Virus record (IMG/VR): IMGVR_UViG_3300050821_002367
Span: 1 to 22,728 of that record
Strand: one strand, 5' to 3'
Origin: a virus
Length of the DNA stretch: 22,728 bases
This document shows, in pieces, positions 2,698-21,127 of the stretch (its first letter is position 1; every line of letters begins with the position of its first letter). A model generated the notes under the pieces. The model ran no database searches and had not been told where the DNA came from. It saw nothing but the letters and a program-made list of their open reading frames with translations. The position numbers and the translations under genes were made by a program.

Positions 2698-2703
2698 GCA
2701 ACC

Positions 2704-3138
2704 GTGCCGCGTTCAATCACCAGTGCAAACGCTACCCTGACGCTCTCCTGCCCGCAGGTCTTTTCGACCCCGCAGGTGATCGAGCAGTTCGCAACCGACG
2801 ACGCCTTCGACACCGAGAACATCTCACCGAGCGAGGCGCAGATGGGAGTCGACGGCGTGGCCTCCTTCGGCTTCACGCCGTATCTCGTGAAGCAGAAAGT
2901 CGTGTTGCAGGCTAACTCGCCATCGAACGACGTCTTCGATCAGATCCGCCAGGCGATGCGTGCGGTGAACGAGACCTTCGAGATCGGGATGACGCTCACG
3001 ATCCCCTCGATCGGGAAGATCCACAACTTCATCAACGGGAGCTTGACCGGCGACATGCCAGTCGCATCCGGCAAGAAGGTTCTCGGCCCGCAAACGTACG
3101 AGCTGACCTTCGAGGATGTGACCACTGCTCCGATCTGA
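2704..3138 (+). CDS. Tail tube protein (DUF3277-type)
   Basis: A 144-residue beta-rich protein with the size, composition and position of a myoviral tail tube subunit: directly after the sheath and before the assembly chaperone. Visible segments are the N-terminal ITSANATLTLSCPQ, the DDAFDTENI/GVDGVASFGFTP region, the amphipathic NDVFDQIRQAMRAVNETFE helix, and a C-terminal YELTFEDV strand. Tube subunits stack as hexamers inside the sheath. The start is GTG 2704, with GGAG at the end of the sheath gene about 9 nt upstream. The next gene follows after 43 nt, a gap that holds a small hairpin. Family assignment is from pattern and gene order. Confidence 0.8.
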   Translation: MPRSITSANATLTLSCPQVFSTPQVIEQFATDDAFDTENISPSEAQMGVDGVASFGFTPYLVKQKVVLQANSPSNDVFDQIRQAMRAVNETFEIGMTLTIPSIGKIHNFINGSLTGDMPVASGKKVLGPQTYELTFEDVTTAPI

Positions 3139-3140
3139 GG

Positions 3141-3169
3141 GTGTAAGCTACACGCCAGAAGAAGCAACC
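3141..3169 (+). promoter_or_regulatory. Small hairpin followed by an AGAAGCAAC-type motif
   Basis: A perfect 5-bp stem GTGTA/TACAC (3141-3145 and 3149-3153) with a 3-nt loop is followed by AGAAGAAGCAACC, just before the chaperone start. A similar arrangement occurs at 15491-15515. It could be an mRNA processing or translation-control element. The stem is short, so chance is possible. Confidence 0.3.
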
Positions 3170-3181
3170 ACGGCCTCATGA

Positions 3182-3700
3182 ATGGCACGGCGATCAACAA
3201 CCGTCACGATCGATGGAATCCGGAGCGACGAGCCCGGGCACCGCGACTGCGGGAAGACGTTCATCATCACGGAGCTGTCGGCGCTCGAGGGCGAGCACTG
3301 GTCATCGCGCCTGCTCACGCTCGTGATCGAGAGCGGTGTCGAGCTGCCGGAGGGGATCGACGAGAATTCGGGAGCTTCGGGCGTCGCGCAATTGACCGCA
3401 CAGCAGATCATCGGCATCGCGCCGCTGATTGCGCTCCTGCAAGATCCCGAGCTGGACGCCGCCACGTGGAAGGCGATCAAGTATCTGCACGCGCCCGGGC
3501 ATCCGCCGCAGCCAATCGCGCAGGGCGATCAGTGTCAGATCGAAGAGATCGGGACGATCACTCGGCTGCGCGTCGAGATGCTCAAGATGCATACGGCTTT
3601 TTTTTCAGCCGGAAAAGCATCGACTTCGGCACCTACTTCGTCGGCAACCCCCACGGGCTTGCGTCCTACGAGAATCTCCCGTCCGCGATCGGTGCGGTAG
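3182..3700 (+). CDS. Tail assembly chaperone, short form (gpG-like)
   Basis: The zero-frame product is 172 residues. It lies between the tail tube and tape measure genes, the canonical position of the tail assembly chaperone that coats the tape measure during tube assembly. The protein is mostly polar with a helical centre (AQLTAQQIIGIAPLIALLQDPEL). Up to residue 141 it is chaperone-like; after the slippery T-run the zero frame continues as a low-complexity tail rich in Ser, Thr, Pro and Arg, which then stops. The start is ATG 3182; an ATG at 3178 belongs to another frame. Ribosomes that shift at the T-run make the longer form. Confidence 0.8.
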   Translation: MARRSTTVTIDGIRSDEPGHRDCGKTFIITELSALEGEHWSSRLLTLVIESGVELPEGIDENSGASGVAQLTAQQIIGIAPLIALLQDPELDAATWKAIKYLHAPGHPPQPIAQGDQCQIEEIGTITRLRVEMLKMHTAFFSAGKASTSAPTSSATPTGLRPTRISRPRSVR

Positions 3701-3837
3701 TCTCGGCCGGTAAGGCCACACTCGGCGAACTCGACACGACGCTCGGCGTCCGCGATCTCTACGACATGGTCGAGATCGTGATGGTCGACGCCTACAACCG
3801 CCACATCCTCGAAGAGAAGGCGCGCAATGGCCGGTAG
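3182..3837 (+). CDS. Tail assembly chaperone, -1 frameshift form (gpGT-like)
   Basis: The predicted fusion joins 141 zero-frame residues (3182-3604) to 77 residues in the -1 frame (3604-3837), about 218 in all. The downstream frame encodes a well-formed protein (DFGTYFVGNPHGL, then SAIGAVVSAGKATLGELD, ending in an Arg/Lys-rich helix) but has no convincing start of its own. The switch point is a T TTT TTT heptamer at 3598-3604. Known biology: most long-tailed phages make chaperone pairs like lambda G/GT by -1 slippage at just this locus, and the C-terminal extension recruits tube subunits to the tape measure. The stop overlaps the tape measure start by 11 nt. A sequencing error in the T-run is the alternative. 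Confidence 0.8.
3598..3630 (+). promoter_or_regulatory. Programmed -1 ribosomal frameshift site with possible downstream stem
   Basis: Eight consecutive T residues (3598-3605) contain the X XXY YYZ heptamer T TTT TTT in the correct register (codons 3599-3601 and 3602-3604). Three nucleotides later GCCGGAA (3608-3614) can pair with TTCGGC (3625-3630), leaving one bulged G and a 10-nt loop. This could act as a stimulatory stem-loop. The heptamer and its register are directly visible; the stimulatory role is inference. Confidence 0.75.
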
Positions 3838-5179
3838 CGTCATCGACAGCCTTGTCATCACGCTCGGGCTCGACTCGAAGGAATTCGCGCGCGGCGTCAA
3901 GGGCTCGACCGAGGAGCTGGCTACCTTCACGAAGCGCCTGGCCGGCATGTTCCTCGCCGTGCGCGGCCTCGAAGACGTCGTCGGGTACTTCAAGGATCTG
4001 CACGCGCAGCTCGCGGAGATCGGCTTCACGTCGCGTAATTTGGGCGTCGCAGGCACCGAGATCAAGAAGCTCGGCGAGGTGTCGGAGTTGTTCGGCGGTC
4101 AGGTGAACGATGCGGCCGACTCCATCCAGAACCTGCAGAACTCGGTCTTCAACCTCCGCTACAAGGGACAGCTCTCCGAGAATCTGCTGATGTTGCAACG
4201 CTTCGGCGTGGCGTACCTAACAGCGTCCGGTCATGCGCGATCCTTCAAGGACGTCGCGCTCGATGCGGCCCGCGCCATCGAACGACAGGCGAAAGCCGCC
4301 GGCATGGACAAGGGTGAGCGCTATCAGATGGCGCTCTCCTTCGGGTTCACCGGGGGCGTTGCGTCCGCAGTCGCGCAGGGCGGCAAGGGGCTCGAGGCGG
4401 CGCTCGGCAAGGCGCAGATCGATCAGCGAGCGCTGAGCGAGAAGACCATACAGGGGCAGGTCAAGCTCGATCAGGACATCACCCGGCTGCAAGAAGCAAC
4501 CGCCGCTCAGTCCTCCGCGATCCTCTCCAAGCTCACCCCAGTCGCCGAAGACGTGGTAAAGGGGCTGCGACATCTCGCCGATGAAGTGCTGCCGAAGCTG
4601 GTCGACGCGCTGAATGCGCTGATCAACTTCTTCAAGAACCCGCCCCCGTGGGCTGCGGGGATTATCGACGGGATCAAGACGCTCGCCAATGCGCTCGGCC
4701 CTGGCGGCACGCTGATCGCCGCGATCGGCGCGCTCACGCTCGCAATCGGAGCAGGAGGGGCGCTGATGGGAGTCATGGGCACGCTCGTGAGCGCGATCGG
4801 CGGCCTCGGGCTCGTGCTCGCCGGCGGCGTCGGCCTCGGCGCGGCGATCGCCAAGGTGCCAAGCGGCGGCCTGCTCGACAAGCTGAATGAGAAATTCCTC
4901 GACTGGTTCGGCCCCGGCAGCTCGGCCGCGGATAAGGCGGCGATCGGCAGCACGCCACCACGACTGCTCGCGCGTCCCCCAGCAACGCCGGGCGCACCGC
5001 GTCCACTCGCATCCACCGCGGGTGGCTCGACGTCGACGAGCAGCAACGCGACCGCCGTGCATATCGACGAAGTGAACATCAACACGAGCTCGTCGACGAT
5101 GAGCGGCACGGGCGCAGATCTCGGGAATGCGCTCGGCCGCAAGCTCCTAGTTGCGAACGCTGATCAGGGACAGGGGTGA
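3827..5179 (+). CDS. Tail tape measure protein
   Basis: A 450-residue protein placed directly after the frameshifted chaperone and before the Dit-like gene. The N-terminal half is helical and rich in Lys/Glu (SKEFARGVKGSTEELATF, then a long amphipathic region). Residues about 277-345 form a Gly/Ala-rich hydrophobic block that could span a membrane several times, a common feature of tape measure proteins that help DNA cross the inner membrane. The C-terminal 90 residues are Pro/Ala/Ser/Thr-rich and probably disordered. At roughly 0.15 nm per residue this length predicts a short tail tube of about 65-70 nm. The start overlaps the chaperone stop by 11 nt. Identification rests on position, composition and architecture. 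Confidence 0.85.
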   Translation: MAGSVIDSLVITLGLDSKEFARGVKGSTEELATFTKRLAGMFLAVRGLEDVVGYFKDLHAQLAEIGFTSRNLGVAGTEIKKLGEVSELFGGQVNDAADSIQNLQNSVFNLRYKGQLSENLLMLQRFGVAYLTASGHARSFKDVALDAARAIERQAKAAGMDKGERYQMALSFGFTGGVASAVAQGGKGLEAALGKAQIDQRALSEKTIQGQVKLDQDITRLQEATAAQSSAILSKLTPVAEDVVKGLRHLADEVLPKLVDALNALINFFKNPPPWAAGIIDGIKTLANALGPGGTLIAAIGALTLAIGAGGALMGVMGTLVSAIGGLGLVLAGGVGLGAAIAKVPSGGLLDKLNEKFLDWFGPGSSAADKAAIGSTPPRLLARPPATPGAPRPLASTAGGSTSTSSNATAVHIDEVNINTSSSTMSGTGADLGNALGRKLLVANADQGQG

Positions 5180-5183
5180 GGCC

Positions 5184-5846
5184 GTGCCGATTCAAATCAC
5201 GGGCATCCCCTTCGTCCCGCCGCAGGTAACGGTACCGGGCATCATCGGCTTCGCGACGCAGGCGATCTCATCGGCCTTGTGGCAGGCCGCACAGCAGCCG
5301 CCGGCGTGGGGCATCTTCGATGACACGGGAGCGCTCGCGGTCGAGCCTGACTCCGTGCTCGATTTCACCAACCGGCAGGAGTACGACATTGCGCAGTTTC
5401 CTGTGCAAAAGGGGAGCTTCTCCGATTACAACAAGGTGCTGAAACCCTTCGAGGTTATTTTTCGACTGAAGAAAGCTAGCACCGTCGACGATCGCGCAAC
5501 CTTCCTTCAGGATCTCGACGATCTGTGCGCCTCGCTCGATCTCTTTCTGGTCTCGACGCCAGAGCGCGACTATCAGGATGTCAACTTCGAGCGCTACGAA
5601 GTAGTGCGCCGCGGGGCGAAGGGCGCATTTCAGCTCACCGAAGTGGATCTCTACGGACAGCGCATCATCGAAGTGCAGGCGCAATATTCGACGACGTCGG
5701 TGCAGACGCCAGATGCGCAATCTGAAGCGGCGTTGCCGACATCCAACGTGGGCAACGTGCAGCCCGGGAACCCTGATTCCCAGCTCGCGCAGGATGGGCA
5801 GCTCGCGCTCTCGACGCAGGCGCAGTTTCCGCAGGGGTACAACTGA
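5184..5846 (+). CDS. Dit-like phage tail/baseplate protein
   Basis: A 220-residue protein resembling the Dit-like N-terminal family of myoviral baseplates. Visible features are PDSVLDFTNRQEYDIAQFPVQ, then GSFSDYNKV, a TFLQDLDDL helix, and a strand-turn-strand region VSTPERDYQDVNFERYEVVRR. In related phages this protein lies where tube and hub meet. GTG 5184 is chosen because AGGGG (5172-5176) lies 7 nt upstream. A TTG at 5151 would add 11 basic residues inside the tape measure gene and lacks a ribosome-binding site. The last 40 residues are Gln/Ser/Pro-rich and probably disordered. Confidence 0.8.
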   Translation: MPIQITGIPFVPPQVTVPGIIGFATQAISSALWQAAQQPPAWGIFDDTGALAVEPDSVLDFTNRQEYDIAQFPVQKGSFSDYNKVLKPFEVIFRLKKASTVDDRATFLQDLDDLCASLDLFLVSTPERDYQDVNFERYEVVRRGAKGAFQLTEVDLYGQRIIEVQAQYSTTSVQTPDAQSEAALPTSNVGNVQPGNPDSQLAQDGQLALSTQAQFPQGYN

Positions 5847-6220
5847 TGCAGGTCGTACCCATGGCTGCGGTGCCCTCGCAGAACCTGTCGATCGTTCTCT
5901 CCGGACAGAGCGTCACGATCAACCTCTATCTGCTCGGCGCGCAGGAAGCCGAGGCGCTCTACATGGATCTCGCGGCGAATGGCGTGCCGATCTTCTACGC
6001 CCGCCAGGCGCGCGCCTACGGTGCGCTGCCGAATACCTCGCCGCGCTGGATGCTCGCCGGGCGGCACTACGAAGGATTCGAGGGCGACTTCCTCTTCATC
6101 GACACGCAGGCGAGCAACGTCGTCCCGACGCTCGATCCGCTCCCCTCGGGGCTCGGGAGCCGCTGGCAGCTCATGTACTTCTCGGTTGCGGATCTCAACG
6201 CCGCGGGGCTCGCCGCATGA
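5846..6220 (+). CDS. Phage baseplate plug protein (Pam3 gp18-like)
   Basis: A 124-residue beta-rich protein. It begins with the typical pattern VPMAAVPSQNLSIVLSGQSV, in which a short strand precedes an I-x-L-x-G-Q-x-V-T-I-N-L motif. It continues with DLAANGVPIFYARQARAYG and ends with SRWQLMYFSVADL. This matches the baseplate plug family found between the Dit-like and hub genes in simple contractile tails. The start overlaps the preceding stop (TGATG) and the end overlaps the hub start (ATGA), so expression is coupled. Assignment is from the family pattern and from order. Confidence 0.75.
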   Translation: MQVVPMAAVPSQNLSIVLSGQSVTINLYLLGAQEAEALYMDLAANGVPIFYARQARAYGALPNTSPRWMLAGRHYEGFEGDFLFIDTQASNVVPTLDPLPSGLGSRWQLMYFSVADLNAAGLAA

Positions 6221-7152
6221 GCGCCACCCCTTCGAGCTTCGTCAACCGGCTGCTGCGCGCATCGCTCGTGCTGCCGCAGGGCAACTTCCCGGGCACGAAC
6301 TCGAACACGCTCGTCCTGCCTGCGCCGGGATCTCCGGTCGGTATTCGCATGTCGGCGAAGCTCACCGGTGCTGGCAACTTCACCAACACCTGCAAGCTCG
6401 ACATCTTCGGCATGCGCCAGGTCGACATGAATGCGGTCACGGTGCTATGGGCTCCCTCGAAGAATTCCGGCGTCGTCCCGACCGGCGTCGTGGCGCGCGC
6501 GATCCTGACGCTCGAAGCGCTCGACAACGTGACCGGTAATTACCTACAGGTGTTTCAAGGGCAGTTTCAGGACGCGTTCCCCGATTACCGAGATCTCCCC
6601 GACGTGCGCCTCACGCTCTCGGCCGCGAGCGGCTATGGCCAGCAGATCCTATCTAGCGCGCCGTCGAGCTTCTCAGGCGGCGTGCAGATCGCGGATCTGT
6701 GCGCACAACTCGCCGGGAAGATGGGCTTCAGCTTCGAGAACAATGGCGTCACGGGATCTCTCAACACGCCCTATCTCTCGGGCACGCTCATGGATCAGTT
6801 TCGACAGGTGTGCGAGGCCGGCAATATCGACTACTACTTCGACAGCAAGCAGATGCTGATCATCTGCCCGAAGAATCAGCCGCGGCAGGGGAAGATCGCC
6901 GTCGTGCTCTCGCCCTCCTCGGGGCTGCGCGGGTACGTATCGCTCGCGCGCTTTGGGATCGAAGTCGACTGCCTCTGGAACGGCGCGATCGAGATGGCCT
7001 CGCCGATCATCGTGCAGGACTCTGACGTACCTGGCACGAATGGCAACTGGTACCCGTTCGCCTTCGAGCACAGCCTCGACAGCGTGAAGCCGCAGGGCTT
7101 GTGGTTCTCGCACCTGCAGTGCGCGCCGTTCCCGAGCACGGTGGGGCAATGA
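6217..7152 (+). CDS. Baseplate hub protein (gpD/Mu gp44-like)
   Basis: A 311-residue protein in the hub position between plug and spike. It contains a strand-rich N-terminus with FTNTCKLDIFGMRQVDMNAVTVL, a LDNVTGNYLQVFQGQF segment typical of hub domain I, and a central helix region VQIADLCAQLAGKMGF. A further segment has GTLMDQFRQVCEAGNIDYYFD and MLIICPK, as in hub proteins that carry a LysM-like or beta-barrel fold. The hub trimer links tube and spike. ATG 6217 is chosen because it overlaps the plug stop as ATGA; the open frame upstream is only a shadow. No catalytic lysozyme residues are apparent. Confidence 0.8.
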   Translation: MSATPSSFVNRLLRASLVLPQGNFPGTNSNTLVLPAPGSPVGIRMSAKLTGAGNFTNTCKLDIFGMRQVDMNAVTVLWAPSKNSGVVPTGVVARAILTLEALDNVTGNYLQVFQGQFQDAFPDYRDLPDVRLTLSAASGYGQQILSSAPSSFSGGVQIADLCAQLAGKMGFSFENNGVTGSLNTPYLSGTLMDQFRQVCEAGNIDYYFDSKQMLIICPKNQPRQGKIAVVLSPSSGLRGYVSLARFGIEVDCLWNGAIEMASPIIVQDSDVPGTNGNWYPFAFEHSLDSVKPQGLWFSHLQCAPFPSTVGQ

Positions 7153-7817
7153 GCACGCCTGCCTCACAGATCGCCACGCCCTTTCAGGAGCCCACCTCCG
7201 GCGCGACGGAGATTCAGGCGCTGCGGTTTCTCATCCTGCAGCGACTCCTCAAGGTGCAGACGATCACCGTAGTGCGGGTCGTTGCGGTGAACCCGGGTGC
7301 GGTCGGCCCAGTGGGCACGGTCGACGTGCTGCCGCTCGTCGGCCAGATCGACGGCGCGGGGAATGTGATCCCGCATCAGACGATCTTCACGCGCCCCTAC
7401 GTGCGGCTGCAGGGCGGCGTCAATGCGGTGATCCTCGACCCGGTCGTCGGAGATCTCGGGGTGTGCCTCTTCTGCTCGCGCGACATCTCGGCCGTCATCA
7501 CCGCGAAGGCACCGTCCCCCCCTTCCTCAAGACGGCTCTTTGACTACGCGGACGGGATCTACTTGGGCGGGGTGCTGAATGGCACGCCCTCGAACTACGT
7601 GCAATTCGCCGCCGACGGCACGATCAAGGTTGTGTCCACGGTGGCGATCGATCTGCAGGCGCCGGCGGTGAACATCACCACCACGGGAAACACCAACATC
7701 AATGGTGCGATCATCTCGCCTGCCGGCGAAGTGACTGATGCGCTCGGCAAGGTACTCGGCACGCACCTGCACTCGGGCGTTCAGAGCGGCGGCAGCAACA
7801 CGGGGCCACCGGCATGA
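7149..7817 (+). CDS. Gp138-type tail spike/puncturing protein with HxH tip
   Basis: A 222-residue protein. The N-terminal OB-fold-like part matches phage Gp138 N-terminal/gpV-type spikes (segments TITVVRVVAVNP, GTVDVLPLVGQID, DLGVCLFCSRDIS). A repetitive beta-helix-like stretch follows (FAADGTIKVVSTVAIDLQAPAVNITTTGN, in part). The end carries GTHLHSGVQSGG, with H206-L-H208. In P2 gpV and phi92 gp138 an HxH motif from three chains binds an iron ion at the spike apex, so a metal-stabilised tip is likely here too. Start and stop both overlap neighbours as ATGA. Confidence 0.85.
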   Translation: MSTPASQIATPFQEPTSGATEIQALRFLILQRLLKVQTITVVRVVAVNPGAVGPVGTVDVLPLVGQIDGAGNVIPHQTIFTRPYVRLQGGVNAVILDPVVGDLGVCLFCSRDISAVITAKAPSPPSSRRLFDYADGIYLGGVLNGTPSNYVQFAADGTIKVVSTVAIDLQAPAVNITTTGNTNINGAIISPAGEVTDALGKVLGTHLHSGVQSGGSNTGPPA

Positions 7818-8215
7818 GCGCGCCCTTCAATACGCTCTTCCTCGATGTCGCGTCGTGGGATCTCGTCGCCGATGCTTCGGGAAATATCGCGATGGCGGAG
7901 CCGAGCTACTCGATCGTGCAGGACGTGGCATCCGCCTGCCGTGTCTTCCTCGGCGAAGTCTATTACGACACGACCGTCGGTGTGCCTTACCTAGGGCAGA
8001 TCGTCAACGGTGAGCCTGCGGCGCAAAACCAACTGCAGCTCCTCGGCCGCACGCCCGCGCTCAATATCCTGCAGAGCGCGCTTGCTCGTGCAGCACTCGG
8101 TGTGCCGTGGGTCGCAGGCGCTGAAGCGATCATCTCGGCTTTCGTCAATCGCCAGGTGCAGGGTCAGGTGCAGATCACGACCGAGAGCGGCTCAACTTTC
8201 ACGGTAATAGCATGA
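7814..8215 (+). CDS. Baseplate wedge protein, gp25/W-like
   Basis: A 133-residue protein with the features of the gp25/P2 gpW/Mu gp46 wedge family: an N-terminal LFLDVASWDLVADASGNIAM strand region, the helix SIVQDVASACRVFLGE, and the YYDTTVGVPYLGQIV segment. A helix ALNILQSALARAA and a C-terminal VQITTESGS strand pair complete it. Wedge proteins of this family attach to the hub and anchor the first sheath ring. Its order after the spike and before the J-like protein is the standard one. Overlaps both neighbours by 4 nt. Confidence 0.8.
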   Translation: MSAPFNTLFLDVASWDLVADASGNIAMAEPSYSIVQDVASACRVFLGEVYYDTTVGVPYLGQIVNGEPAAQNQLQLLGRTPALNILQSALARAALGVPWVAGAEAIISAFVNRQVQGQVQITTESGSTFTVIA

Positions 8216-9672
8216 CCACCAACGTCCCGAACATTCAGTGGACCGAGCAAGGCCTCATCGTGCCGACCGAGGCCGAAGTACTGCTCGGGGTGCAGGAAGA
8301 TCTGAACGCCGCCTTCGGGGGCAATCTCAACTTCGCCAACCTCTTCACCCCGCAGGGCCAGCTCGCGAGCTCGCTCGCCGCGGTGATCTCCAACGCCTAC
8401 GCGCTCTTCACGATGCTGGTTAACGGCGTCGACCCCGATCTCAACTCCGGCTTCATGCAGGATGTCATCGGGCGGATCTACTTCCTCAATCGCGCCGCGG
8501 GTACCCCGACCGTCGTCGAGTGCACCTGCGTTGGCCTTGCGGGCACCGTGATCCCGGCCGGCAGCCGCACCGCTCCGCAGGCGCAGGACACGGCCGGCAA
8601 TCTCTACTACTGCGTAGCGGGCGGCACGATCCCCGTCGGCGGCTCGATCGTGCTCGAGTTCGCGAATGTGCTGAACGGCCCGATCGCCTGCCCGATGAGC
8701 ACGCTCACGACCATCTATCAGGCGGTGCCCGGCTGGGAGTCGATCACGAACGCTGGGGCAGGTATCCCGGGCTCTAACATTGAGAGCGCGGCAGCCTTCG
8801 AGTATCGGCGCGAGCAGTCTGTGGCGGCGAATGCGCACGGCTCGGCGGATGCGATCTATGGCGCGGTGATCGACCTGCCAGGCGTGACCGATGCCTTCGT
8901 GTACGAGAACACGACCAATGCACCGATCCTTGTGGGCTCGACCAACTACAGCCTTCTTCCGCACTCGGTTTATGTGGGCGTGATCGGCGGCGTGCCGCAG
9001 GCGATTGCTAACGCCATCTGGACGAAGAAGGATCTCGGCTGCGACATGAATGGCAACACGTCCGAGACGGTCGTGGATACCAAGTACTCCTTCCCGCAGC
9101 CTTCCTACACGATCAAATTCAACGACTGCGCCGCGAATCCGGTCGGCTTCACGCTCACCGTGAACATCGTCGCCTCGACCGCTCTGCCATCGACGATCGT
9201 CGCCGATGTGCAAAACGCCTGCTTCGCGCAGTTCAACGGGACGAATGCCAACGGGCAGCGGGTGCGCATCGGATCGCTTCTGCTCGCGGCTTCCTTCTAC
9301 GGCCCGGTCGCTACATGTGAGGGCCCGAGCGTGCCGGTGCAGGTGCTCTCGATCTACATCGGCACCGCCTTCTCGGGCCACGGCACGCTCGTCACCGGCA
9401 CGGACGTCCTCACCATCACCGCCGTCACATCCGGCACCCTGACTGCGGGCACCGAAGTGTCGGACGCCTCGAGCCAGATCCCGGCCAACACGCAGATCGT
9501 GCAGCAGCTCACCGGCTCGCCCGGCGGCATCGGCACGTATCAGATGAACAAGAACGCGCTCTCGACCGTGGGCGCGCCCGAAGTCATCACGGGCGCAGCG
9601 ACGGGCACCGCAGCGCAGATCGGTATCGATCAGGCGCCGGTGTTGAGTCTGGTCAACGTGAATCTGGTGTAG
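8212..9672 (+). CDS. Baseplate J-like wedge protein
   Basis: A 486-residue baseplate J-family protein (P2 gpJ/T4 gp6 type), the structural core of the wedge ring. Visible features are an N-terminal helical region (PTEAEVLLGVQEDLNAAFGG), the QLASSLAAVISNAYALF helix, and GTVIPAGSRT, typical of the central beta domain. Further on come ESAAAFEYRREQSVAAN and a LPGVTDAFVYENTTN segment. The C-terminal part should end in a strand region with IGIDQAPVLS. An extra beta-rich module (residues 399-461, VLTITAVTSGTLTAG, NTQIV, PGGIGTYQM) splits this region. It overlaps the preceding gene by 4 nt. Confidence 0.88.
   Translation: MTTNVPNIQWTEQGLIVPTEAEVLLGVQEDLNAAFGGNLNFANLFTPQGQLASSLAAVISNAYALFTMLVNGVDPDLNSGFMQDVIGRIYFLNRAAGTPTVVECTCVGLAGTVIPAGSRTAPQAQDTAGNLYYCVAGGTIPVGGSIVLEFANVLNGPIACPMSTLTTIYQAVPGWESITNAGAGIPGSNIESAAAFEYRREQSVAANAHGSADAIYGAVIDLPGVTDAFVYENTTNAPILVGSTNYSLLPHSVYVGVIGGVPQAIANAIWTKKDLGCDMNGNTSETVVDTKYSFPQPSYTIKFNDCAANPVGFTLTVNIVASTALPSTIVADVQNACFAQFNGTNANGQRVRIGSLLLAASFYGPVATCEGPSVPVQVLSIYIGTAFSGHGTLVTGTDVLTITAVTSGTLTAGTEVSDASSQIPANTQIVQQLTGSPGGIGTYQMNKNALSTVGAPEVITGAATGTAAQIGIDQAPVLSLVNVNLV
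9406..9594 (+). repeat. Beta-rich module, copy 3 (inserted in baseplate J-like protein)
   Basis: This codes for residues 399-461 with VLTITAVTSGTL, N-T-Q-I-V, S-P-G-G-I-G-T-Y and ends in V-I-T-G. It resembles copies 1 and 2. Copies 1 and 3 share the N-(S/T)-Q-I-V then P-G-G-(V/I)-G-T-Y core. Confidence 0.6.
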
Positions 9673-9676
9673 GTGG

Positions 9677-11725
9677 ATGAGCCGCACCTTCACATTTCGC
9701 GCCACCGTCGACACCGCTCTCTTCGGTGTGATCGGCGCGGCCACGCGCCCGAACGGCACCTCGATCGTACTGCGGCAGGATCACACCTTCGGCGACAGCG
9801 ATGTCTTTCGCAGCACCGATGGTGGCGTGACATGGACGGGCATTGTTAGCTTAGGGTGGGACGGCACCGGGTGGATGCTCTATAACAACGGGCACTGGCT
9901 CGCTGGCTCGTTCAACTCGCCCACCACGACCTACTACTCTGCCGACGACGGTCTGACGTGGAACGCCGTCACAAACGCAAGCGGGTGCGGCACACCGGGA
10001 GCCGCGGGCGACGGTGCCAACACGATCGTCATGCCCGGGAATGGCGGCGGCGGCAGCAAGACCGTCTACAGCCTGAACAACGGCACCTCGACTGCGGCCG
10101 CTGCTTCGCTGGCGCATTATTTTGTTCCTGCCGACAACGCCGTCCTATGGGACGGCACGCAGTTTGTCGGCATCGGGTTAGATTCGGGACTCAGCAACCG
10201 CTACATCTTCACCGCAGCGGACTTCTCGTCGGGAACTCCGGTGTGGGCGCAGGTCGCCGGACCTTCGACTGTGCCGGTCGCTCAAAATGGCTCGTGTTCT
10301 AAGTTCGCCCACGACCCCGCTCTCGGCTATCTCGTCTCGGGGACAACTAACATCGGTGGCGCTGCGACGTGGTACACGAGCACCGTCCTCGCGAACCTTC
10401 TCTCGAGCGCGGCCATTACTCCGATGGGAGTGACGGGCGGCAGCGCCTTAATGTCGTGCGCCTGCAACGGTGTCTTCTTCATCGGAGACAGCGCGGGGAA
10501 TCTGTGGGAATCCTCCGACGGCGTGACATGGAGTCAGGACGTCACCAACTTCGCTCACGGTGACTACGCCACGTGGGTCACTTTCGATCCCGTTCACCAC
10601 GTCTTCATCCTGTTCGGCAGCCAGGGGAGCGTCTGCAATGCCCCCGCTGGAACTAACGTTCCCAATGTTGTGGGGCTCACGCAGATTGCGGCCACGCTGG
10701 CGATTACGAGCGCAGGGTTCACCCTCGGGCCGATCACCAGCACTTATAGCGCGACCGTCGCCCCCGGGCTCGTGGCGCTTCAGCTCCCCGTCGCAGGAAC
10801 TCTTGCAGACCCCGGCACGCCGGTGGCCATCACGCTTTCGCTCGGCTCGCCCGAAGTCGTGGTGCCCGACGTGATCGGTATGACCGCGGCGCTCGCCGAA
10901 AGCACGATCGCCGGCGCGCAGCTCGTGACGGGCGCGATCAGCGGCATTCTCGATCCTGATATAGCGATCGGGAGCGTGGGCACGCAGAACCCGCTGCCGG
11001 GCACAATCGTCTTCGCGGGCACTCCCGTAGACCTCGGGATCTCCTTCATCGTCCCCGAGTTCGATGTCGACGCGACGGTGATCAGCCAGTACGCGAATTC
11101 CCAGACGATCCTCGCGATGGTTGCCAACTTCGCGGAATACTTCGACCCGGCGCAGAACCTGCAGAGCTTCTACCTCGACGTGTGGAACATCGACACGGCG
11201 ATCGGATTCGGGCTCGATATTTGGGGGCGCATTCTCGGCGTCTCGCGCGTGATCCCGATTCCCGGGACGTCCGGGGCTTTCGGCTTCGAGAACAGCGACA
11301 CGCCGCCCGACTGGGAGAACTTCGGCAATCTCAACGACGTGCTCTCTGGCGGCCCCTTCTTTAGCGGCCAGATCTCGGGCAATTCGTACAAGCTCAACGA
11401 CGGCCCCTACCGGACGCTCCTTCTCACCAAGGCGCTAGGCAACATCTGCGCGACGACGGCACCGGCGTTGAATGCGCTGATCACGAACCTCTTCCCCGGG
11501 CGCGGTCGTTGCTACACCCGGGACGGCGGCGCGATGACGATGACCTACGTGTTCGAGTTCCCGCTGACCACGATCGAATACGCAATCCTTGCGTACTCAG
11601 GTGTCCTCGCTCATCCGGCGGGCGTGGGCGTCAACATCAATGTTGCTGCTGGTGGTTTCTTAGGCTTTGCCGAAGCCTTGCCAGGCGTCGAGCCCTTCAA
11701 CTTTGGGGTATTTTTCGGAGCGTAA
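9677..11725 (+). CDS. Asp-box/PASTA/PASTA/DUF2612 fusion baseplate protein
   Basis: A 682-residue mosaic. Residues 1 to about 320 carry Asp-box-like repeats as in BNR/sialidase-type propellers: STDGGVTW (46-53), SADDGLTW (88-95) and SSDGVTW (279-285). Residues 328-390 and 396-458 are two PASTA-like domains, each beginning VPNVVG or VPDVIG with the usual spacing to a hydrophobic ending. Residues 459-682 match DUF2612, a P2 gpI/Mu gp48-like baseplate or tail protein (YFDPAQNLQSFYLDVWNIDTA in part, LDIWGRILGV, YRTLLLTKAL). DUF2612 should dock to the wedge, leaving the propeller and PASTA domains free to contact glycans or peptidoglycan. The domains are read from sequence; binding is inferred. 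A GGTGG ribosome-binding-like stretch abuts ATG 9677. Confidence 0.85.
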   Translation: MSRTFTFRATVDTALFGVIGAATRPNGTSIVLRQDHTFGDSDVFRSTDGGVTWTGIVSLGWDGTGWMLYNNGHWLAGSFNSPTTTYYSADDGLTWNAVTNASGCGTPGAAGDGANTIVMPGNGGGGSKTVYSLNNGTSTAAAASLAHYFVPADNAVLWDGTQFVGIGLDSGLSNRYIFTAADFSSGTPVWAQVAGPSTVPVAQNGSCSKFAHDPALGYLVSGTTNIGGAATWYTSTVLANLLSSAAITPMGVTGGSALMSCACNGVFFIGDSAGNLWESSDGVTWSQDVTNFAHGDYATWVTFDPVHHVFILFGSQGSVCNAPAGTNVPNVVGLTQIAATLAITSAGFTLGPITSTYSATVAPGLVALQLPVAGTLADPGTPVAITLSLGSPEVVVPDVIGMTAALAESTIAGAQLVTGAISGILDPDIAIGSVGTQNPLPGTIVFAGTPVDLGISFIVPEFDVDATVISQYANSQTILAMVANFAEYFDPAQNLQSFYLDVWNIDTAIGFGLDIWGRILGVSRVIPIPGTSGAFGFENSDTPPDWENFGNLNDVLSGGPFFSGQISGNSYKLNDGPYRTLLLTKALGNICATTAPALNALITNLFPGRGRCYTRDGGAMTMTYVFEFPLTTIEYAILAYSGVLAHPAGVGVNINVAAGGFLGFAEALPGVEPFNFGVFFGA

Positions 11726-11731
11726 ACCAAC

Positions 11732-12910
11732 ATGGGCGTCCCTAACCCGACCTTCATCCCCGAGCCATTTGCCAACACGGCACCCGGTGGCAACGTCAAC
11801 TTCCCGATACCGGATGCTCCGCCCGGCACGCCAGCGAACGCCGCGAGCTGGTCGAAGGGCTTCCCCTCGATCACGATGCAGCCGGAAGTCTCTGGCGGTT
11901 TGCCGCCGCTCGGTCAGGACTTCAACGGCATTTTGCAGACTGTTACGCAGGGGCTGTGCGCGCTTCAGGCTGGGCAGTTCTATCTCTACAACAACACGTA
12001 CGCGACTGCGATCAGCGGTTACGACTTGGGCGCGATCCTCTGGATGCTCGACGGCACGGGCTTCTGGCTCAACATCTCTGGCGGTAACACCACCAACCCC
12101 GACAACGATTCGACCGCAGCCAACTGGGTGCCCGCGATTTCGTATGGCAAGACGATCATCACAGGACTCACTGGCGGATCTCTCACGCTCGCACCCTCGC
12201 AGTGGAAGCGCGGGCTGATAGTCCTCTCGGGCGCACTGACCTCGAATCTCACGGTGAACATGCCGGCGACGATCCAGCAGTGGCTCATCTCGAACGCCTG
12301 CACGGGTGCCTTCACCGTCACCGTGAAGACCGCTGGCGGCACGGGTGTCGTGATTCCCGCGGGCGGCCCCTCCTCGCCCACCGGGGTCTATGGCGACGGC
12401 ACGAACATCTACCTCAGCACGTCCCCGCTCACCGTCCCGATCGCGGTGCCGGCGACACCGAACACGATCGTAGAGCGCGACAACCTCGGCAACGGCTTCT
12501 TCGTGCGGGTGAATCTCTCGAGCGCGGCCAATGAGAACCCGACGATCGGCTCTGTGCTAGTCCAGAGCAACGCGCTAGACGGGCTCTCGCGGTGGTCGAC
12601 GCTTGCTAATTTCCGCACGCAGATCCTCAACATCACCGGCGCGCTTACGTCCTCCGCAGGTTGGTGGCGCGGCAATCCAGACGGCTCGATCGAGCAGGGC
12701 GGATCGTTCGCCTATACCGGATCAGGTTCGACGGTTGCCTTCGGCTTCACCGTGCCCTTCCTCTCGCGCGTCCTCAATATCGTCTTCACCACCACGGTCG
12801 GCGGCTTCACGCCGGGGTGGCAATCGAACACGCTCTCCGGAGCTGTCGCCAGCATGAACGGCTTGGGCGGCACACCGCAGACGATCTACTGGCGAGCCAT
12901 CGGAGTCTAA
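11732..12910 (+). CDS. Tail fibre protein with gp53-like C-terminus
   Basis: A 392-residue fibre-like protein. The N-terminal 140 residues have a pattern common at the base of phage fibres: FANTAPGG, GFPSITMQP, PPLGQDFNGIL, then GYDLGAILWMLDG and ISGGNTTNPDN. A beta-rich shaft follows (LTLAPSQWKRGLIVLSGALT in part, then VTVKTAGGTG). The last 80 residues look like a gp53-like receptor-binding tip (GWWRGNPDGSIEQGG, TVAFGFTVPF). It probably contacts the host surface. The N-terminal part is related to that of the next gene, suggesting that both attach to the same baseplate site. ATG 11732 follows the fusion gene after 6 nt. Confidence 0.75.
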   Translation: MGVPNPTFIPEPFANTAPGGNVNFPIPDAPPGTPANAASWSKGFPSITMQPEVSGGLPPLGQDFNGILQTVTQGLCALQAGQFYLYNNTYATAISGYDLGAILWMLDGTGFWLNISGGNTTNPDNDSTAANWVPAISYGKTIITGLTGGSLTLAPSQWKRGLIVLSGALTSNLTVNMPATIQQWLISNACTGAFTVTVKTAGGTGVVIPAGGPSSPTGVYGDGTNIYLSTSPLTVPIAVPATPNTIVERDNLGNGFFVRVNLSSAANENPTIGSVLVQSNALDGLSRWSTLANFRTQILNITGALTSSAGWWRGNPDGSIEQGGSFAYTGSGSTVAFGFTVPFLSRVLNIVFTTTVGGFTPGWQSNTLSGAVASMNGLGGTPQTIYWRAIGV

Positions 12911-12912: not shown

Positions 12913-13674
12913 ATGCCCGGCCAACCGACCCCCCCGATTCTCGCCGAGGCCTTCGCGCTCAATGCGCCGAACTCCTCGCCCGCGTCCCCGGTACCTGGCG
13001 GGCGCACCTTCCCCTTCCCGACCGCGTCGCAGATTGGCGTCGTGAATGGCGCGGCCTCGCTCCACGACGGCTTCCCTCCGCTCACCATGCAACCGCCGCC
13101 GCCTACCGGGAGCGGCATTCCACCCTTCGGCGTGGACGCGAACGGAATCCTCTACATCCTTTCGGCGCACATCGCGGCGCTCGGCGCAGGCCAGCCCTAC
13201 ATATGGAGTTCGGTGCTCGAAGCCGATATGGGTGGCTACGCGCTCGGGGCGGTGCTACAGCAGCTCGCTGATCCGACAGCGTTCTGGATCAACATGACCT
13301 CGGGGAATGCGACGAACCCCGACACCGCCTCCCCGCTCGGCTCGACGGGCTGGATGAGCACGAAGCCGCTGCGGCAGAGCGTCACCGCCGGCGGCAACGA
13401 CATCGCGCTCCTCGGGGCGAGCGACTACCTCTACGACGTGGACGCCACGGCGGGCGCCATCAACATCACGGGCTTTGTCCCGCAGCGTGACGGGCAGCGG
13501 CTCACGATCCGCAAGATCGATGCGACGGGCAACGCCGTGACGTTTGCCTCGCTCACCGGGTCCGCAGTCGGCCACCAGCTTCAGATCGTGCCGGCCGGAC
13601 TCTCGCTTCCACTTCAGTACATGGCGCTAACGCTCCGCTTCAATTCCGTAGTCAATGCATGGGTGCAAGAATGA
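12913..13674 (+). CDS. Short tail-fibre-like protein
   Basis: A 253-residue protein whose first about 140 residues parallel those of the preceding fibre: AEAFALNAPN, then DGFPPLTMQP, IPPFGVDANGILY, GGYALGAVLQQLAD and FWINMTSGNATNPD. The C-terminus is different and short, with YDVDATAGAINITGF and LTIRKIDATGNAVTF. It lacks the gp53-like tip. It may be a capping or adaptor fibre, or a paralogue that lost its tip. ATG 12913 starts 2 nt after the preceding stop; the open frame further upstream is a shadow. The function is inferred from the shared N-terminus. Confidence 0.7.
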   Translation: MPGQPTPPILAEAFALNAPNSSPASPVPGGRTFPFPTASQIGVVNGAASLHDGFPPLTMQPPPPTGSGIPPFGVDANGILYILSAHIAALGAGQPYIWSSVLEADMGGYALGAVLQQLADPTAFWINMTSGNATNPDTASPLGSTGWMSTKPLRQSVTAGGNDIALLGASDYLYDVDATAGAINITGFVPQRDGQRLTIRKIDATGNAVTFASLTGSAVGHQLQIVPAGLSLPLQYMALTLRFNSVVNAWVQE

Positions 13675-15116
13675 AACATCCGATCCGTCTCGCTCTGCTG
13701 CTGCTCCTGACCGTTGCCACGGTCGCAAGCGCGCAGCTCTATCCGCTCTTCGGCCCGGCCACCGGAATTCTCAAGGGCACTACCTCGAGCCCACAGACAT
13801 CCGCTGCGGCGAGTTCCGACGTCGCGGCGCTGTGGAGCGGCACGTGCAATTCGAGCAGCTTCCTGCGTGGCGATGGGGTGTGCGCGACGCCTTCTGGCGG
13901 CAGTGGCACGGTCACGAGCATTACCGCAGGCACCGGGCTCACCGGAGGAACGATCACCACGTCGGGGACGATTGCCCTCTCTTCTCCGGTGTCTGCTACG
14001 AATGGCGGCACGGGCGAGGCGGGCACCGTCAGCGGCGTGATGAAAGGCAACGCCACGAGCGCGGTGTCGGCCGCGGCAAGCTCGGATGTCATCGCGCTCT
14101 GGTCGGGCACCTGTAACTCGACGACATTCCTGCGGGCTGATGGATCATGCCAACCTGCCTCGGGCGGTGGCAGCGGCACCGTGACGAGCGTCGCCCTCAC
14201 GATGCCTAGCGGCTTCAGTGTGAGCGGGAGCCCGATCACGAATTCGGGCACGCTCGCCGTCAGCACGAGTCTGAGCGGACTGCTGAAGGGCACCGGCTCG
14301 GCATTCACAACCGCCGCGGCTTCCGATGTCTCTGCGCTCTGGTCCGGCACCTGCAACTCGACCACGTTTCTGCGCGGTGATGGCACCTGTGCTGCCGCGG
14401 GCGGTGGCAGCACACCGGTCCCGGGCACGATCCCCGACCTCGTGTTCTGGATGCGCTCCGACCTCGTGCTCGGTGGCACCGGGGGCTATGGCTTGCCGCT
14501 GTTGCAGAACTCCACGCCATGGCTCACGGGGCTATCCGCCGTCGGAGCGACTACAGCCACTACGGGGGTACTCGTTAGCGGCACGCAGCTTAACTCGCTG
14601 AACGTCCTCGCGTGGCCTGGCAGCTCTGCCGGTCGGTACCAGTTCCCGGACAACGCCAACTCCACATGTTGCATGGGTGTCCTGTTCCACAAGTTCACGA
14701 TCTTCATCGTAGCTAACGCCTCGTCGTTCTCGGGCTCGCCGACATTCTTTTCGGGCCCCTCAAGTTCGCTCGCCTTCCGCCTAGAGACGAGCGGCAAGAT
14801 GGGATTGGTCAAGGACTTCGTCGCGCTCATTGGCACGTCCACAACCGCGCAGACCGTAAGCACGTGGTTCCAAGGCAACGCTACCTACGACGACAGCTCG
14901 GGCGCCTTCGCTTTCCGCAGCTCACAGGCCGCCAACGGCAGCGGCACGAACGTGGTAGGTATCACTGTAATCTCGAACTCGATCGGTTGGGACAATGGCG
15001 GCGGGGCGGGCGATTTTGCAGGCTCGATCGCTGAAATCATTATTTACAACCGCGTACTGAGCGGTGGTGAGATCACCAGCGTCGAGTCATATCTCAACAC
15101 CAAGTGGGGAGTCTGA
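13671..15116 (+). CDS. Sec-signal fibre-like protein with Cys repeats and LamG-like C-terminus
   Basis: A 481-residue protein that begins with a convincing signal peptide (K2, R6, then LALLLLL and VASA, cleavage likely after A21). Then come three 26-residue repeats with the core ALWSGTCNS followed by FLR-x-DG-x-C; each copy has two cysteines. They are separated by Gly/Ser/Thr-rich shaft sequence (GTVTSVALTMPSGFSV) typical of phage tail fibres. Residues about 250-485 resemble a LamG/concanavalin A-like domain ending GSIAEIIIYNRVLS and YLNTKWG. Export of a fibre-like phage protein is unusual. It could be a periplasm- or surface-exposed protein, or a virion protein with a signal-like N-terminus. 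ATG 13671 overlaps the preceding stop; ATG 13659 would add four residues. Confidence 0.7.
   Translation: MKHPIRLALLLLLTVATVASAQLYPLFGPATGILKGTTSSPQTSAAASSDVAALWSGTCNSSSFLRGDGVCATPSGGSGTVTSITAGTGLTGGTITTSGTIALSSPVSATNGGTGEAGTVSGVMKGNATSAVSAAASSDVIALWSGTCNSTTFLRADGSCQPASGGGSGTVTSVALTMPSGFSVSGSPITNSGTLAVSTSLSGLLKGTGSAFTTAAASDVSALWSGTCNSTTFLRGDGTCAAAGGGSTPVPGTIPDLVFWMRSDLVLGGTGGYGLPLLQNSTPWLTGLSAVGATTATTGVLVSGTQLNSLNVLAWPGSSAGRYQFPDNANSTCCMGVLFHKFTIFIVANASSFSGSPTFFSGPSSSLAFRLETSGKMGLVKDFVALIGTSTTAQTVSTWFQGNATYDDSSGAFAFRSSQAANGSGTNVVGITVISNSIGWDNGGGAGDFAGSIAEIIIYNRVLSGGEITSVESYLNTKWGV
13806..13883 (+). repeat. 78-bp fibre repeat, copy 1
   Basis: Encodes 26 residues, from AASSDV through ALWSGTCNS and FLRGDGVC. 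Two Cys residues bracket the second half. It matches copies at 14073 and 14313 in phase with the reading frame. Confidence 0.8.
14073..14150 (+). repeat. 78-bp fibre repeat, copy 2
   Basis: Encodes AASSDV, ALWSGTCNS and FLRADGSC. It starts 267 bp after copy 1. It differs from copy 3 at only a few residues. Confidence 0.8.
14313..14390 (+). repeat. 78-bp fibre repeat, copy 3
   Basis: Encodes AAASDV, ALWSGTCNS and FLRGDGTC. It starts 240 bp after copy 2 and precedes a Gly/Ser linker into the LamG-like domain. Confidence 0.8.
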
Positions 15117-16648: not shown

Positions 16649-17143
16649 ATGATCATGATCCATATCGCTTTATTGCTGCTGCTTTGCCTGCCGGGTATCG
16701 CTCCGGCGATGGAGCCGGCCGAGCAGGACTTCCGCATAGGCGCCTCGCTCCTCCACAACAACACAGGGCTCGCGGCGCAGATGATGCTGCTGCAGCCCGT
16801 GAGCCCGGCCTACTCGATCCAGTTCGGCGGCGGCATATGGAGCCCGACGTCGAACACGAAGCTCAATTGGGACTGGTCGGGCGGGGTGCGGTCGTGCTGG
16901 GCGTTTGGCCTGTGCTTTTTCATCGGTGCCGATTACCTGCAGCGGATTGACTACATGAACGGAGCGCACACCAACTGGCTATGGAGCTTCAGTTATCAGT
17001 TCGGGAACGACGACAACAAGATGCTGAAGGGCGTCGCGCAATGGCACATCTCGAATGCCGGGACATCGGACACCAACATCGGCCGCAATGCCATCGGTCT
17101 CGAATTCCGGTGTCAGCACGAGATCATCATCTGCTTAAAGTAG
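16649..17143 (+). CDS. PagL-like lipid A deacylase homologue (acyloxyacyl hydrolase family)
   Basis: A 164-residue protein with a signal peptide (residues 1-20, LLLLLCLPGIAPA) and a beta-barrel-like mature part of alternating polar and hydrophobic strands. The diagnostic segment is QWHISNAGTSDTNIGRN: H133-I-S135-N136-A-G with N144 and G146. This matches the His/Ser motif of PagL-type outer-membrane lipid A 3-O-deacylases. From memory, PagL's third catalytic residue is a Glu that would align with N147 here, so activity may differ. It is a probable outer-membrane protein, made late. ATG 16649 is favoured by AAGGGGG (16635-16642) about 7 nt upstream; ATG 16610 would add 13 polar residues before the signal peptide. 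Confidence 0.75.
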   Translation: MIMIHIALLLLLCLPGIAPAMEPAEQDFRIGASLLHNNTGLAAQMMLLQPVSPAYSIQFGGGIWSPTSNTKLNWDWSGGVRSCWAFGLCFFIGADYLQRIDYMNGAHTNWLWSFSYQFGNDDNKMLKGVAQWHISNAGTSDTNIGRNAIGLEFRCQHEIIICLK

Positions 17144-17743: not shown

Positions 17744-18538
17744 ATGACACGAGCGGCAGATGCGCGGCTCGCGATGCTCGCGTGTGCGGCGGAGGAGATG
17801 TTCGATGCCGCCTATCCCGCGAAGTGTCCGATCGCGCATCCGCTGCTCGGCGAGCTGGGATGGACGCTCAAGGGCCATCTGACCGCCGTCGACGCCCTCA
17901 CCGGCATCGGCGTGCGGGCTTACTACGGCTTCCTCGCCACGTGCGGCGCGAGCACCTACGCGATCGTGGTGCGCGGCACGCAGAGCGTGCTCGAGTGGCT
18001 GAAGGATGCGGAGTTCGCGCTCACGCCGCATCCGGTCGCGGGGTGCGTCGAGACCGGCTTCTGGTCGATCTACGAGACGATGCGCTACCGCACGCTCTCG
18101 GGCTTCGTGCGTCCGCTCCTGCCCGGGCTTCTCGCCGAGATCGGAGCCGGCCAGGTGACGGTGATCGGTCACAGCCTCGGCGCGCCGATCGCGACTTACC
18201 TGCAGCTCGATCTCAACTCGATCCCGAGCACCGGGATCTCGACGAGCGGCAGGTTCTTCGCATCCCCCCGCCCCGGGGATGTGGCCTTCGCGACGATCGC
18301 CTCGGCCGCGCTCACTGACTATTGCGTATATGCCTACGAAGAAGATCTCGTGCCGAAGGTGCCGATCGGCTTCGGCTACCGCGAGCTCGCGAATCTCGTG
18401 ACGCTGCCGCCGAGCGGCGACATCGCACGCACCAACCCGGCGGCGTGGCATCACTCGACGACCTACGGGTATCTGCTCGACCCGTCCGTGCTCTCGCTCA
18501 TCCCGACGCCGTACCGCGGGGCGATCTTGAAGCCATGA
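17744..18538 (+). CDS. Class 3 lipase (alpha/beta hydrolase)
   Basis: A 264-residue lipase_3-type protein. The oxyanion-region motif R78-G79-T80 is followed by a W-L-K-D segment, then the nucleophile elbow G142-H-S144-L-G146 inside VTVIGHSLGAPIATYL. Next come SPRPGD and the acid candidate D201 in YEEDLVPKVP. H236/H237 in AWHHSTTYG supply the catalytic His. The order Ser, Asp, His is correct for the family. There is no signal peptide, so it would need holin lesions to reach the envelope, like an endolysin. It follows the preceding stop directly (TAAATG) without an obvious ribosome-binding site. The substrate is unknown; envelope phospholipids are the likely target in this context. Confidence 0.85.
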   Translation: MTRAADARLAMLACAAEEMFDAAYPAKCPIAHPLLGELGWTLKGHLTAVDALTGIGVRAYYGFLATCGASTYAIVVRGTQSVLEWLKDAEFALTPHPVAGCVETGFWSIYETMRYRTLSGFVRPLLPGLLAEIGAGQVTVIGHSLGAPIATYLQLDLNSIPSTGISTSGRFFASPRPGDVAFATIASAALTDYCVYAYEEDLVPKVPIGFGYRELANLVTLPPSGDIARTNPAAWHHSTTYGYLLDPSVLSLIPTPYRGAILKP

Positions 18539-19378: not shown

Positions 19379-21127
19379 TCAGAAGAGATCCTCGCTCGCC
19401 CTGATCTCGCCGCGGCTGCTCACGACGAGCCCCTTGGCCGCCAGCCGGGGCACATAGGTCTCGATCGACCGCGGCGCGTAACCGGTGGCCACCTGTAGCT
19501 GATCCCGGGTCATGGTGCCGCCTCGGCCGTCGATGAGGACGTCGAGGATCTTCCGCTCGCCTTCGGGCAGGATCGAGCGCCAGTGCTCCTGCAGAGCTTC
19601 CCCTTGCGGTAGCGGCGCGGCGTCCGGCATGGCGGCGTGCCCGACATTCGTGGCCTTGAGCAGGCCGCCTACGCTCTCGACGTAGAGCTTCGCCATGAGG
19701 CGCGGCAGGTAGGTCTCAAGCGATCGCGCGGCGTAGCCGGTCAAGACCCCGAGCTGCGATCGCGTGCGCCCGCTCGGGAACTGGATGAGCGCCGCGAGGA
19801 TCTTCGCCTCGCCCTTCGGGAGATCTCCCGATTCTTTGGTAACAACCACACGAGCCCCACGCGGCAGGCCCGCTCCTACGATCTCCATTCCTTCCTTGAG
19901 TGCGCCAGATGTGACCGATACCTGTAATCGAGCATCGGGGATTAGGCTCGGCTCGAACTGCTGCGGCGCGTGCTCATTCAGAGCCGAGTCGACGGCCCGA
20001 TGAATCGCCTGCCGCAGATCCTTGTGGTCTCGCAGGCGATCGGCGAGCCGGTAGCGCTCACCAGCCGTATAGCCGCGCTGATAGCCGCGCTCATCCGCCG
20101 CGCGCTCGAGCGCCTTGACGTCGACCTTCGCCGCCGCCGCCGGTTTGACGCGCGGGTCGGCGAGCTTGCGCTGTAGCACGGCGATATCGCGATCGCGCGC
20201 GGCCAGCTCGGCGCGCAGTTTCTTGGGGTCGTTGGCCTCAGCTTCTACGACCGCATCCCCGATGATGCCGCGGAGCTTGTCGACGTCGACGGCCGCGGTA
20301 CGCACCTGGCGCTCGCCGTCCTTCTGGTCGGGCGTCTTCGTATTGTCGTAGGTCTTCGGCCGCGGGAACTGCACGCACTCAAGGAAGCGTGCCACGCCCG
20401 AGACGACCCACGCCTCGCCGTCCGCGAGCCCCGAGAGACTGCTCTCGATCGAGTCGCGCTTGTCCTTGTCCTTGACGTTGCCCTTGAGCCACCCGAGCAC
20501 CGGCTGCTGATCCGCCGGCGCGATGAAGCGGTGCACGACCATCGTCTCGCAGCTACCGAGGATCGCGTTGTGCAAGGCCTGCGTGCGCTGGGTCATGACG
20601 AGCAGCCTGATCCCCTTCGTGCGCCCAGCGACGGCGATCTTCTTCGCGTAGTGGATCGCGAGATTTTCCTTGCCGATGCCGGCCCGCTCCTTGGGCGCGA
20701 ACTCGTGCGCTTCCTCGATCGCCAGATACAACACGCCCTTCATGCGCTTCATGAGCGTGGCGGCGAAGTCGACGAAGAAGGCCTGCAGGCCGCCCGCCTC
20801 GAAGTCGGCCATGTCGATGATCGAGAGCGGAAGCGAGCCGCGCGCCACGAGCTCGCCGATCGCCTTGCCAGCGCCTGAGTGCAGCGGCACGTGCCCATGC
20901 GGGCCGCCGAGGATCTGGAACGGGAGCCCGGCGCGCTTGCCGTCAGCGCTCGACGTCAACCCCCACCAGTCGGACTTGAGCGGATCGAGGATGCACACGC
21001 GCGCACCCTCGGCCACCACGTGCTCGACGATGAGCTTCGCGGTCGTCGTCTTACCGCTACCGGTCATCCCGAGGATGCCGGTGTGCGACTTCAGCGCCTG
21101 TTCGGGGATCGGCAGTTTCTTCACCAC
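19379..21127 (-). CDS. HerA/DUF87-type ATPase with tandem winged-helix-like domains
   Basis: A 582-residue protein. Residues 1 to about 255 form a HerA/FtsK-type P-loop ATPase: Walker A G20-M-T-G-S-G-K26-T27, Walker B LYLAIEEAHEF (133-143, E138/E139) and a sensor-like LLVMTQR (175-181). A charged coiled-coil-like region spans about 280-385. Residues about 436-488 and 520-573 are two related winged-helix-like domains (LP-K/E-GE-x-KIL, then TGYA-x-RS-x-ETY-x-PRL-x-AK). Known HerA ATPases are hexameric DNA translocases; a role in moving or remodelling phage or host DNA is inferred. GTG 21127 has GGGTGAG 6 nt upstream and overlaps the preceding small DNA-binding gene by 7 nt. Confidence 0.85.
   Translation of the reverse strand: MVKKLPIPEQALKSHTGILGMTGSGKTTTAKLIVEHVVAEGARVCILDPLKSDWWGLTSSADGKRAGLPFQILGGPHGHVPLHSGAGKAIGELVARGSLPLSIIDMADFEAGGLQAFFVDFAATLMKRMKGVLYLAIEEAHEFAPKERAGIGKENLAIHYAKKIAVAGRTKGIRLLVMTQRTQALHNAILGSCETMVVHRFIAPADQQPVLGWLKGNVKDKDKRDSIESSLSGLADGEAWVVSGVARFLECVQFPRPKTYDNTKTPDQKDGERQVRTAAVDVDKLRGIIGDAVVEAEANDPKKLRAELAARDRDIAVLQRKLADPRVKPAAAAKVDVKALERAADERGYQRGYTAGERYRLADRLRDHKDLRQAIHRAVDSALNEHAPQQFEPSLIPDARLQVSVTSGALKEGMEIVGAGLPRGARVVVTKESGDLPKGEAKILAALIQFPSGRTRSQLGVLTGYAARSLETYLPRLMAKLYVESVGGLLKATNVGHAAMPDAAPLPQGEALQEHWRSILPEGERKILDVLIDGRGGTMTRDQLQVATGYAPRSIETYVPRLAAKGLVVSSRGEIRASEDLF

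Follow-up and report, generated by a model that had tools for sequence, protein, structure and literature searches.

The question raised by this locus is what a phage baseplate protein does with a head carrying Asp boxes and two PASTA domains placed in front of it. The window, that is, the whole stretch of DNA analyzed here, is a virus record of 22,728 bases, in which a single open reading frame on the plus strand encodes a protein of 682 amino acids consisting of a head, two PASTA repeats, and a DUF2612 domain. The three-part protein claimed at this place by the sequence-only reading was confirmed by the open reading frame itself, Pfam, and AlphaFold2. Its features are as follows.

9677..11725 (+): whole fusion gene (open reading frame translation, Pfam)
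9677..10651 (+): head, residues 1-325, predicted seven-bladed beta-propeller (AlphaFold2, VIA-align, Foldseek)
9812..9835 (+): Asp box 1, residues 46-53, STDGGVTW
9938..9961 (+): Asp box 2, residues 88-95, SADDGLTW
10511..10531 (+): Asp box 3, residues 279-285, SSDGVTW
10655..10855 (+): PASTA repeat 1, residues 327-393 (Pfam PF03793, own profile, pLDDT about 95)
10859..11059 (+): PASTA repeat 2, residues 395-461 (Pfam PF03793, own profile, pLDDT about 95)
11063..11719 (+): DUF2612, residues 463-681, gp7-type baseplate wedge domain by sequence (Pfam, profile match to XM1 gp17)
11267..11356 (+): loop, residues 531-560, aligned with the spike-holding stretch 80-106 of XM1 gp17 (putative role)
11651..11722 (+): C-terminal tail, residues 659-682, resembling stretch 201-242 of XM1 gp17 (weak likeness, putative role)

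The Fusion Gene and Its Tail Operon

The fusion gene lies within a contractile-tail operon, after the gp25-like and J-type genes (Pfam, PHROG).

376-927: tail terminator
928-2697: sheath
2704-3138: E217 gp32-type protein
3827-5179: tape measure
5846-6220: Pam3 gp18-type plug
6217-7152: hub
ending at 7817: spike-like protein with an apex motif
7814..8215 (+): gp25-like sheath initiator / wedge subunit (PHROG 120)
8212..9672 (+): baseplate J, gp6-type wedge (Pfam PF04865, 2.7e-8; PHROG wedge subunit)
11732..12910 (+): tail fiber gene, directly 3' of the fusion gene (PHROG tail fiber, 1.3e-56)

The baseplate J protein is presumably the partner of the fusion protein in the core bundle.

Several other genes of the window were noted. 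A fiber-like protein is encoded at 13659-15116 (+); its annotated start gives a signal-peptide-like N-terminus, and its C-terminus is weakly LamG-like. The gene at 16649-17140 (+) encodes a PagL-like (lipid A 3-O-deacylase) protein with a Pfam E-value of 0.0026, which is below the cut-off, and an HxSNAG-like motif close to the C-terminus; it would point to a Gram-negative host and perhaps to LPS modification by the phage. A Class 3 lipase (PF01764, 2.4e-16) is encoded at 17744-18538 (+), close to likely lysis genes, and a HerA/DUF87-type ATPase (4.5e-10) at 19379-21127 (-), in the opposite orientation to the tail operon.

Domains of the Fusion Protein

All three Asp boxes were found exactly at the residues where they had been reported. 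Shuffled heads contained 0.07 such motifs on average versus the three observed, and three were reached in 0.3% of shuffles; the Pfam BNR/Asp-box model gave an E-value of 0.019 on the window protein, below its cut-off. When modeled alone by AlphaFold2, the head formed an all-beta chain (pLDDT 76, pTM 0.83), for which the best VIA-align match had a Z-score of 25.4 (284 residues, 2.9 A); the matches listed include seven-bladed folds. The match spans residues 1-325 of the predicted model, so that what had been described as a propeller-like head is predicted to be a complete seven-bladed propeller, and as a prediction this fold is secure. The same does not hold for its function, for which the glycan binding supposed by the sequence-only reading is one possibility, because many unrelated propellers of differing functions match the head about equally well. 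The top Foldseek match was YCF48 (E-value 6e-12), an Asp-box seven-bladed propeller as well, with an identity of only about 15%. YCF48 acts in the assembly of the photosystem and binds a peptide. No match to the head was found in 50,697 GenBank phage records. An Asp-box region resembling the window head forms the C-terminal part of a 1142-aa protein of another kind (L015, 3523-6951, on a 112 kb contig).

The two PASTA-like domains that had been claimed are supported by Pfam (1.7e-16, two repeats) and by a confidently predicted PASTA fold. The AlphaFold2 model of the protein, computed from 49 aligned sequences of the window and the loci, has a mean pLDDT of 77.5, and these repeats reach about 95.

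The assignment of the C-terminus to the DUF2612 type is likewise borne out, by Pfam (2.7e-47, residues 466-653, profile positions 3-180 of 181) and by profile matches to the solved wedge protein XM1 gp17 (2.8e-15), gp89 (4.3e-11), and Pam3 gp23 (3.7e-6), and these sequence matches identify it as a gp7-type baseplate wedge domain. The likeness of the C-terminal tail to XM1 gp17 comes from a weak second profile match at 188-236 of the latter. Since residues 531-560 align with the first spike-holding stretch of gp17 and the tail weakly resembles the second, the window protein probably holds fibers as usual in addition to carrying an arm of its own.

Relatives in Other Phages

IMG/VR was scanned with the full protein, the head, the DUF2612 domain, the segment comprising PASTA and DUF2612, and the protein of L014. 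In the retrieved IMG/VR loci, a profile search found at least 24 distinct sequences in which PASTA is fused to DUF2612. The number of PASTA repeats per fusion ranges from one to five (58 repeats across the 24 fusions found), and the head, in all fusions found that have one, is at the N-terminus. Thus the architecture is not the single oddity it had been taken for, but is recurrent and swappable. For instance, L003 has the same domain order as the window protein and is 48% identical to it over the alignment. Contig 3300021088_000048, identical to the window (100%) over 8,866 nt, was left out as an independent case.

The heads are of several kinds. Asp-box heads occur in the window, L003, L014, L021, L024, L027/L029, L124, and L146, those besides the window's with three to seven pattern matches each, some of them overlapping. 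LamG lectin-like heads were assigned by Pfam in L014, L018, L047, and L083, and by eye in L071 and L144. Heads of other beta folds are found in L069, L077, L088, L093, L136, and L176, that of L136 resembling the N-terminal part of the L018 head. L022, L074, L126, and L157 have PASTA repeats with little or no head, and in L004, L005, and similar phages, the corresponding position is taken by a bare DUF2612 gene.

Phages with the fusion probably make no wedge protein of this kind other than the armed one, because the 18 whole fusion records contain one DUF2612 gene apiece and no second one by Pfam (in L146 and L157 this single gene appears as a split match), every PASTA match in them lies in the same frame, and no conserved start codon, which would yield an arm-less wedge, was found at the DUF2612 boundary. 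No open frame in the retrieved IMG/VR loci had PASTA repeats and lacked DUF2612. In 84,980 bacterial and archaeal genomes, a search with a two-sequence alignment gave 591 pattern matches, none of them a relative, and a search with a broader alignment recovered 73 loci with DUF2612, from all of which PASTA was absent. The PASTA matches in GenBank phages were few, mostly weak, and located in unannotated records.

Some loci show other variations. In two Achromobacter prophages (L186 and L188) and also in L048, L059, and L067, the N-terminus of DUF2612 is extended by another sequence, which starts with NIVNVFEPAQFGVGDGATTQFQIGGP and lacks PASTA. Judged by sequence, the Achromobacter prophage extensions indicate that prophages of cultured hosts also make use of the N-terminal slot. 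The DUF2612-type proteins of L099, L108, L109, and L111 have N-terminal long runs of short SGQITTTTSAR-like repeats. In L037, a PASTA repeat is split across two overlapping frames (2510-4885 and 4740-5645), which could be either a sequencing error or a real frameshift.

Exchange of Heads

Comparison of related loci indicates that heads are exchanged between close relatives. The DUF2612 domains of L077 and L083 are 91% identical and their heads have no detectable similarity, the L083 head being of the LamG type in common with L047. The DNA of L142 and L140 is 81% identical up to nt 4093, five bases past the start of the fusion gene (4089), and the similarity resumes at 4944, inside the PASTA block that starts at 4809. 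In five further pairs (L142/L071, L140/L071, L142/L145, L142/L137, and L137/L140), the two sequences cease to be similar no more than about 75 nt from the gene start and match again in the PASTA block, whereas the DNA of L145 and L176, which have related heads, aligns through the head. Between the armed L029 and the bare L033, the similarity breaks off just before the armed gene and is found again within DUF2612, as if the arm had been inserted in frame at a single site. A quick tree of 80 DUF2612 rows, in which L014 sits on a very long branch, implied at least three changes of PASTA presence on well-supported branches (about nine by parsimony) and about ten changes of head type. Upstream of the fusion gene, this baseplate operon contains another stretch in which L142 (about 1538-2458) and L140 (1587-2398) have no DNA similarity.

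A Probable Receptor-Binding Arm on the Wedge

We suggest that the protein is probably a gp7-type wedge subunit of a contractile-tail phage onto the N-terminus of which a receptor-binding arm has been grafted. The arm is probably exchangeable and would serve for gripping host cells, because related phages swap the head for quite different ones. In phage XM1, one gp17 molecule is present per wedge, its N-terminal helix-turn-helix is bundled with two gp16 molecules, and the tail spikes are held by two flexible stretches, 80-106 and 201-242; the authors of that study proposed that a pull on the spikes travels through the wedge and reaches the sheath initiator (PMC10457771). Binding to core oligosaccharide and a wider host range have been described for variants of the DUF2612 wedge protein of phage K8 (PMC9887876). 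By analogy with the XM1 wedge and the K8 variants, there would be one copy of the fusion protein per wedge and thus six host-gripping arms per virion. The PASTA repeats could form a stalk with a length set by their number, and the head would bind a molecule on the host surface, alongside the usual fibers docked on the wedge loops. A pull on the arm would be passed directly to the wedge, which controls sheath contraction, and a crossover in the region from the start codon to the PASTA block could change recognition and keep the baseplate constant. Against this model, the N-terminus of XM1 gp17, from which an arm would have to emerge, lies within the core bundle with two gp16 (PMC10457771), the fold points to no particular ligand, and the nearly head-less relatives L022, L074, L126, and L157 do not fit a pure adhesin well.

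PASTA domains are best known as the cell-wall sensors of kinases. The sequence-only reading saw in the repeats a peptidoglycan-sensing arm, and this part of it is not supported. Kinase PASTA domains do bind muropeptides in some bacteria (PMC6428115), and Foldseek matches the predicted PASTA fold to the Staphylococcus aureus PrkC structures. However, Lys and Arg together make up 0.5% of the 58 phage PASTA repeats versus 2.3% of the heads and 3.8% of DUF2612, and are absent from 40 of the 58 repeats; the Ser-Lys and Asn-Gln pairs of the PknB PASTA3-4 linker, proposed to bind muropeptide (PMC6428115), were not seen by eye in the PASTA1-2 linker of the window protein; and close DUF2612 prophages reside almost all in Gram-negative genomes (Achromobacter, Bordetella, Burkholderia, Pseudomonas, Xenorhabdus, and others), the exceptions including one MAG labeled Patescibacteria. 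A peptidoglycan role is therefore unlikely as far as the sequences tell, and a stalk is favored by the paucity of Lys and Arg, the variable repeat number, and the position between head and wedge. The propeller could also be an enzyme cutting a surface polysaccharide, since a virginiamycin B lyase and GH74 glycosidases are among the top structural neighbors of the head, and Asp-box propellers are common among glycosidases (PMC2716378). We consider a lyase or glycosidase improbable, given that neighbors of many functions score alike, that inspection of the 325-aa head by eye revealed no RIP motif of sialidases (GH33-like), and that the same slot carries LamG-like or unrelated heads in relatives.

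A somewhat better candidate, though still rather unlikely, is a role within the virion, where the head would dock or shield fibers or brace the baseplate against the sheath. It agrees with the docking of spikes at the XM1 wedge (PMC10457771), the fiber gene directly 3' of the fusion gene, and the relatives without a head, but comparison of heads with wedges shows unrelated head folds in the same position on near-identical wedges, a turnover expected for changing receptors and not for a fixed partner. The host-recognition arm, which the sequence-only reading had envisaged as a propeller and PASTA domains fused to a wedge protein, is the most likely explanation. Finally, a join of two genes by assembly error is ruled out, its probability being negligible, because the same domain order, in one stop-free open frame, recurs on many contigs of clearly divergent sequence.

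The host-recognition arm may exemplify a more general arrangement, which we put forward as a tentative possibility: the N-terminus of the gp7-type wedge would be a plug-in slot that accepts different heads, each borne on a PASTA stalk whose length varies, with host contact wired directly into the contraction trigger and not relayed by separate fibers. Phage host range is usually inferred from fiber and spike genes. If the wedge does carry a swappable head, fiber-based predictions miss a part of it. PASTA domains would serve here as ready-made stalks, the varied repeat numbers and head types would provide a natural experiment in which both arm length and specificity differ, and the arm is relevant to the question of how binding to a receptor sets off contraction of the sheath.

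Comparison with Known Systems

Papers on PASTA in connection with a baseplate, tail fiber, or tail protein were sought, and none of relevance appeared in the literature searched. As far as searched, both the head-PASTA-DUF2612 arm and the exchange of its cassettes are undescribed, in agreement with the novelty claimed for the architecture and with the lack of GenBank phage matches to the head. The structure library does include an entry from an uncultured phage that is named "PASTA_pknB domain containing protein" and may or may not have DUF2612. Adhesin domains on the baseplate as such are already known, because T4-like and other wedge-annotated proteins (PHROG 1469 and 13163; the "baseplate wedge initiator" of S-SSM7) have LamG-like or propeller-like parts; compared from annotation, they show no PASTA or DUF2612. 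The window protein shares the PASTA fold and its tandem arrangement with the kinases PknB and PrkC, but it has no kinase or membrane segment, its repeats are poor in Lys and Arg, and it is fused to a virion protein.

The DUF2612 wedge protein GP075 of Pseudomonas phage K8 binds a host receptor in mutant form (PMC9887876), but does so with 243 amino acids and point mutations or a 7-aa duplication, without added domains. The most similar system is gp17 of Vibrio phage XM1 (PDB 7kh1), an ortholog of T4 gp7 with a homologous wedge domain and, as in the window, genomic neighbors of the gp25 and gp6/J type. Gp17 has 242 amino acids without an N-terminal head or PASTA, and XM1 recognizes its host via separate spikes, whereas the window protein probably carries a recognition arm of its own on the wedge.
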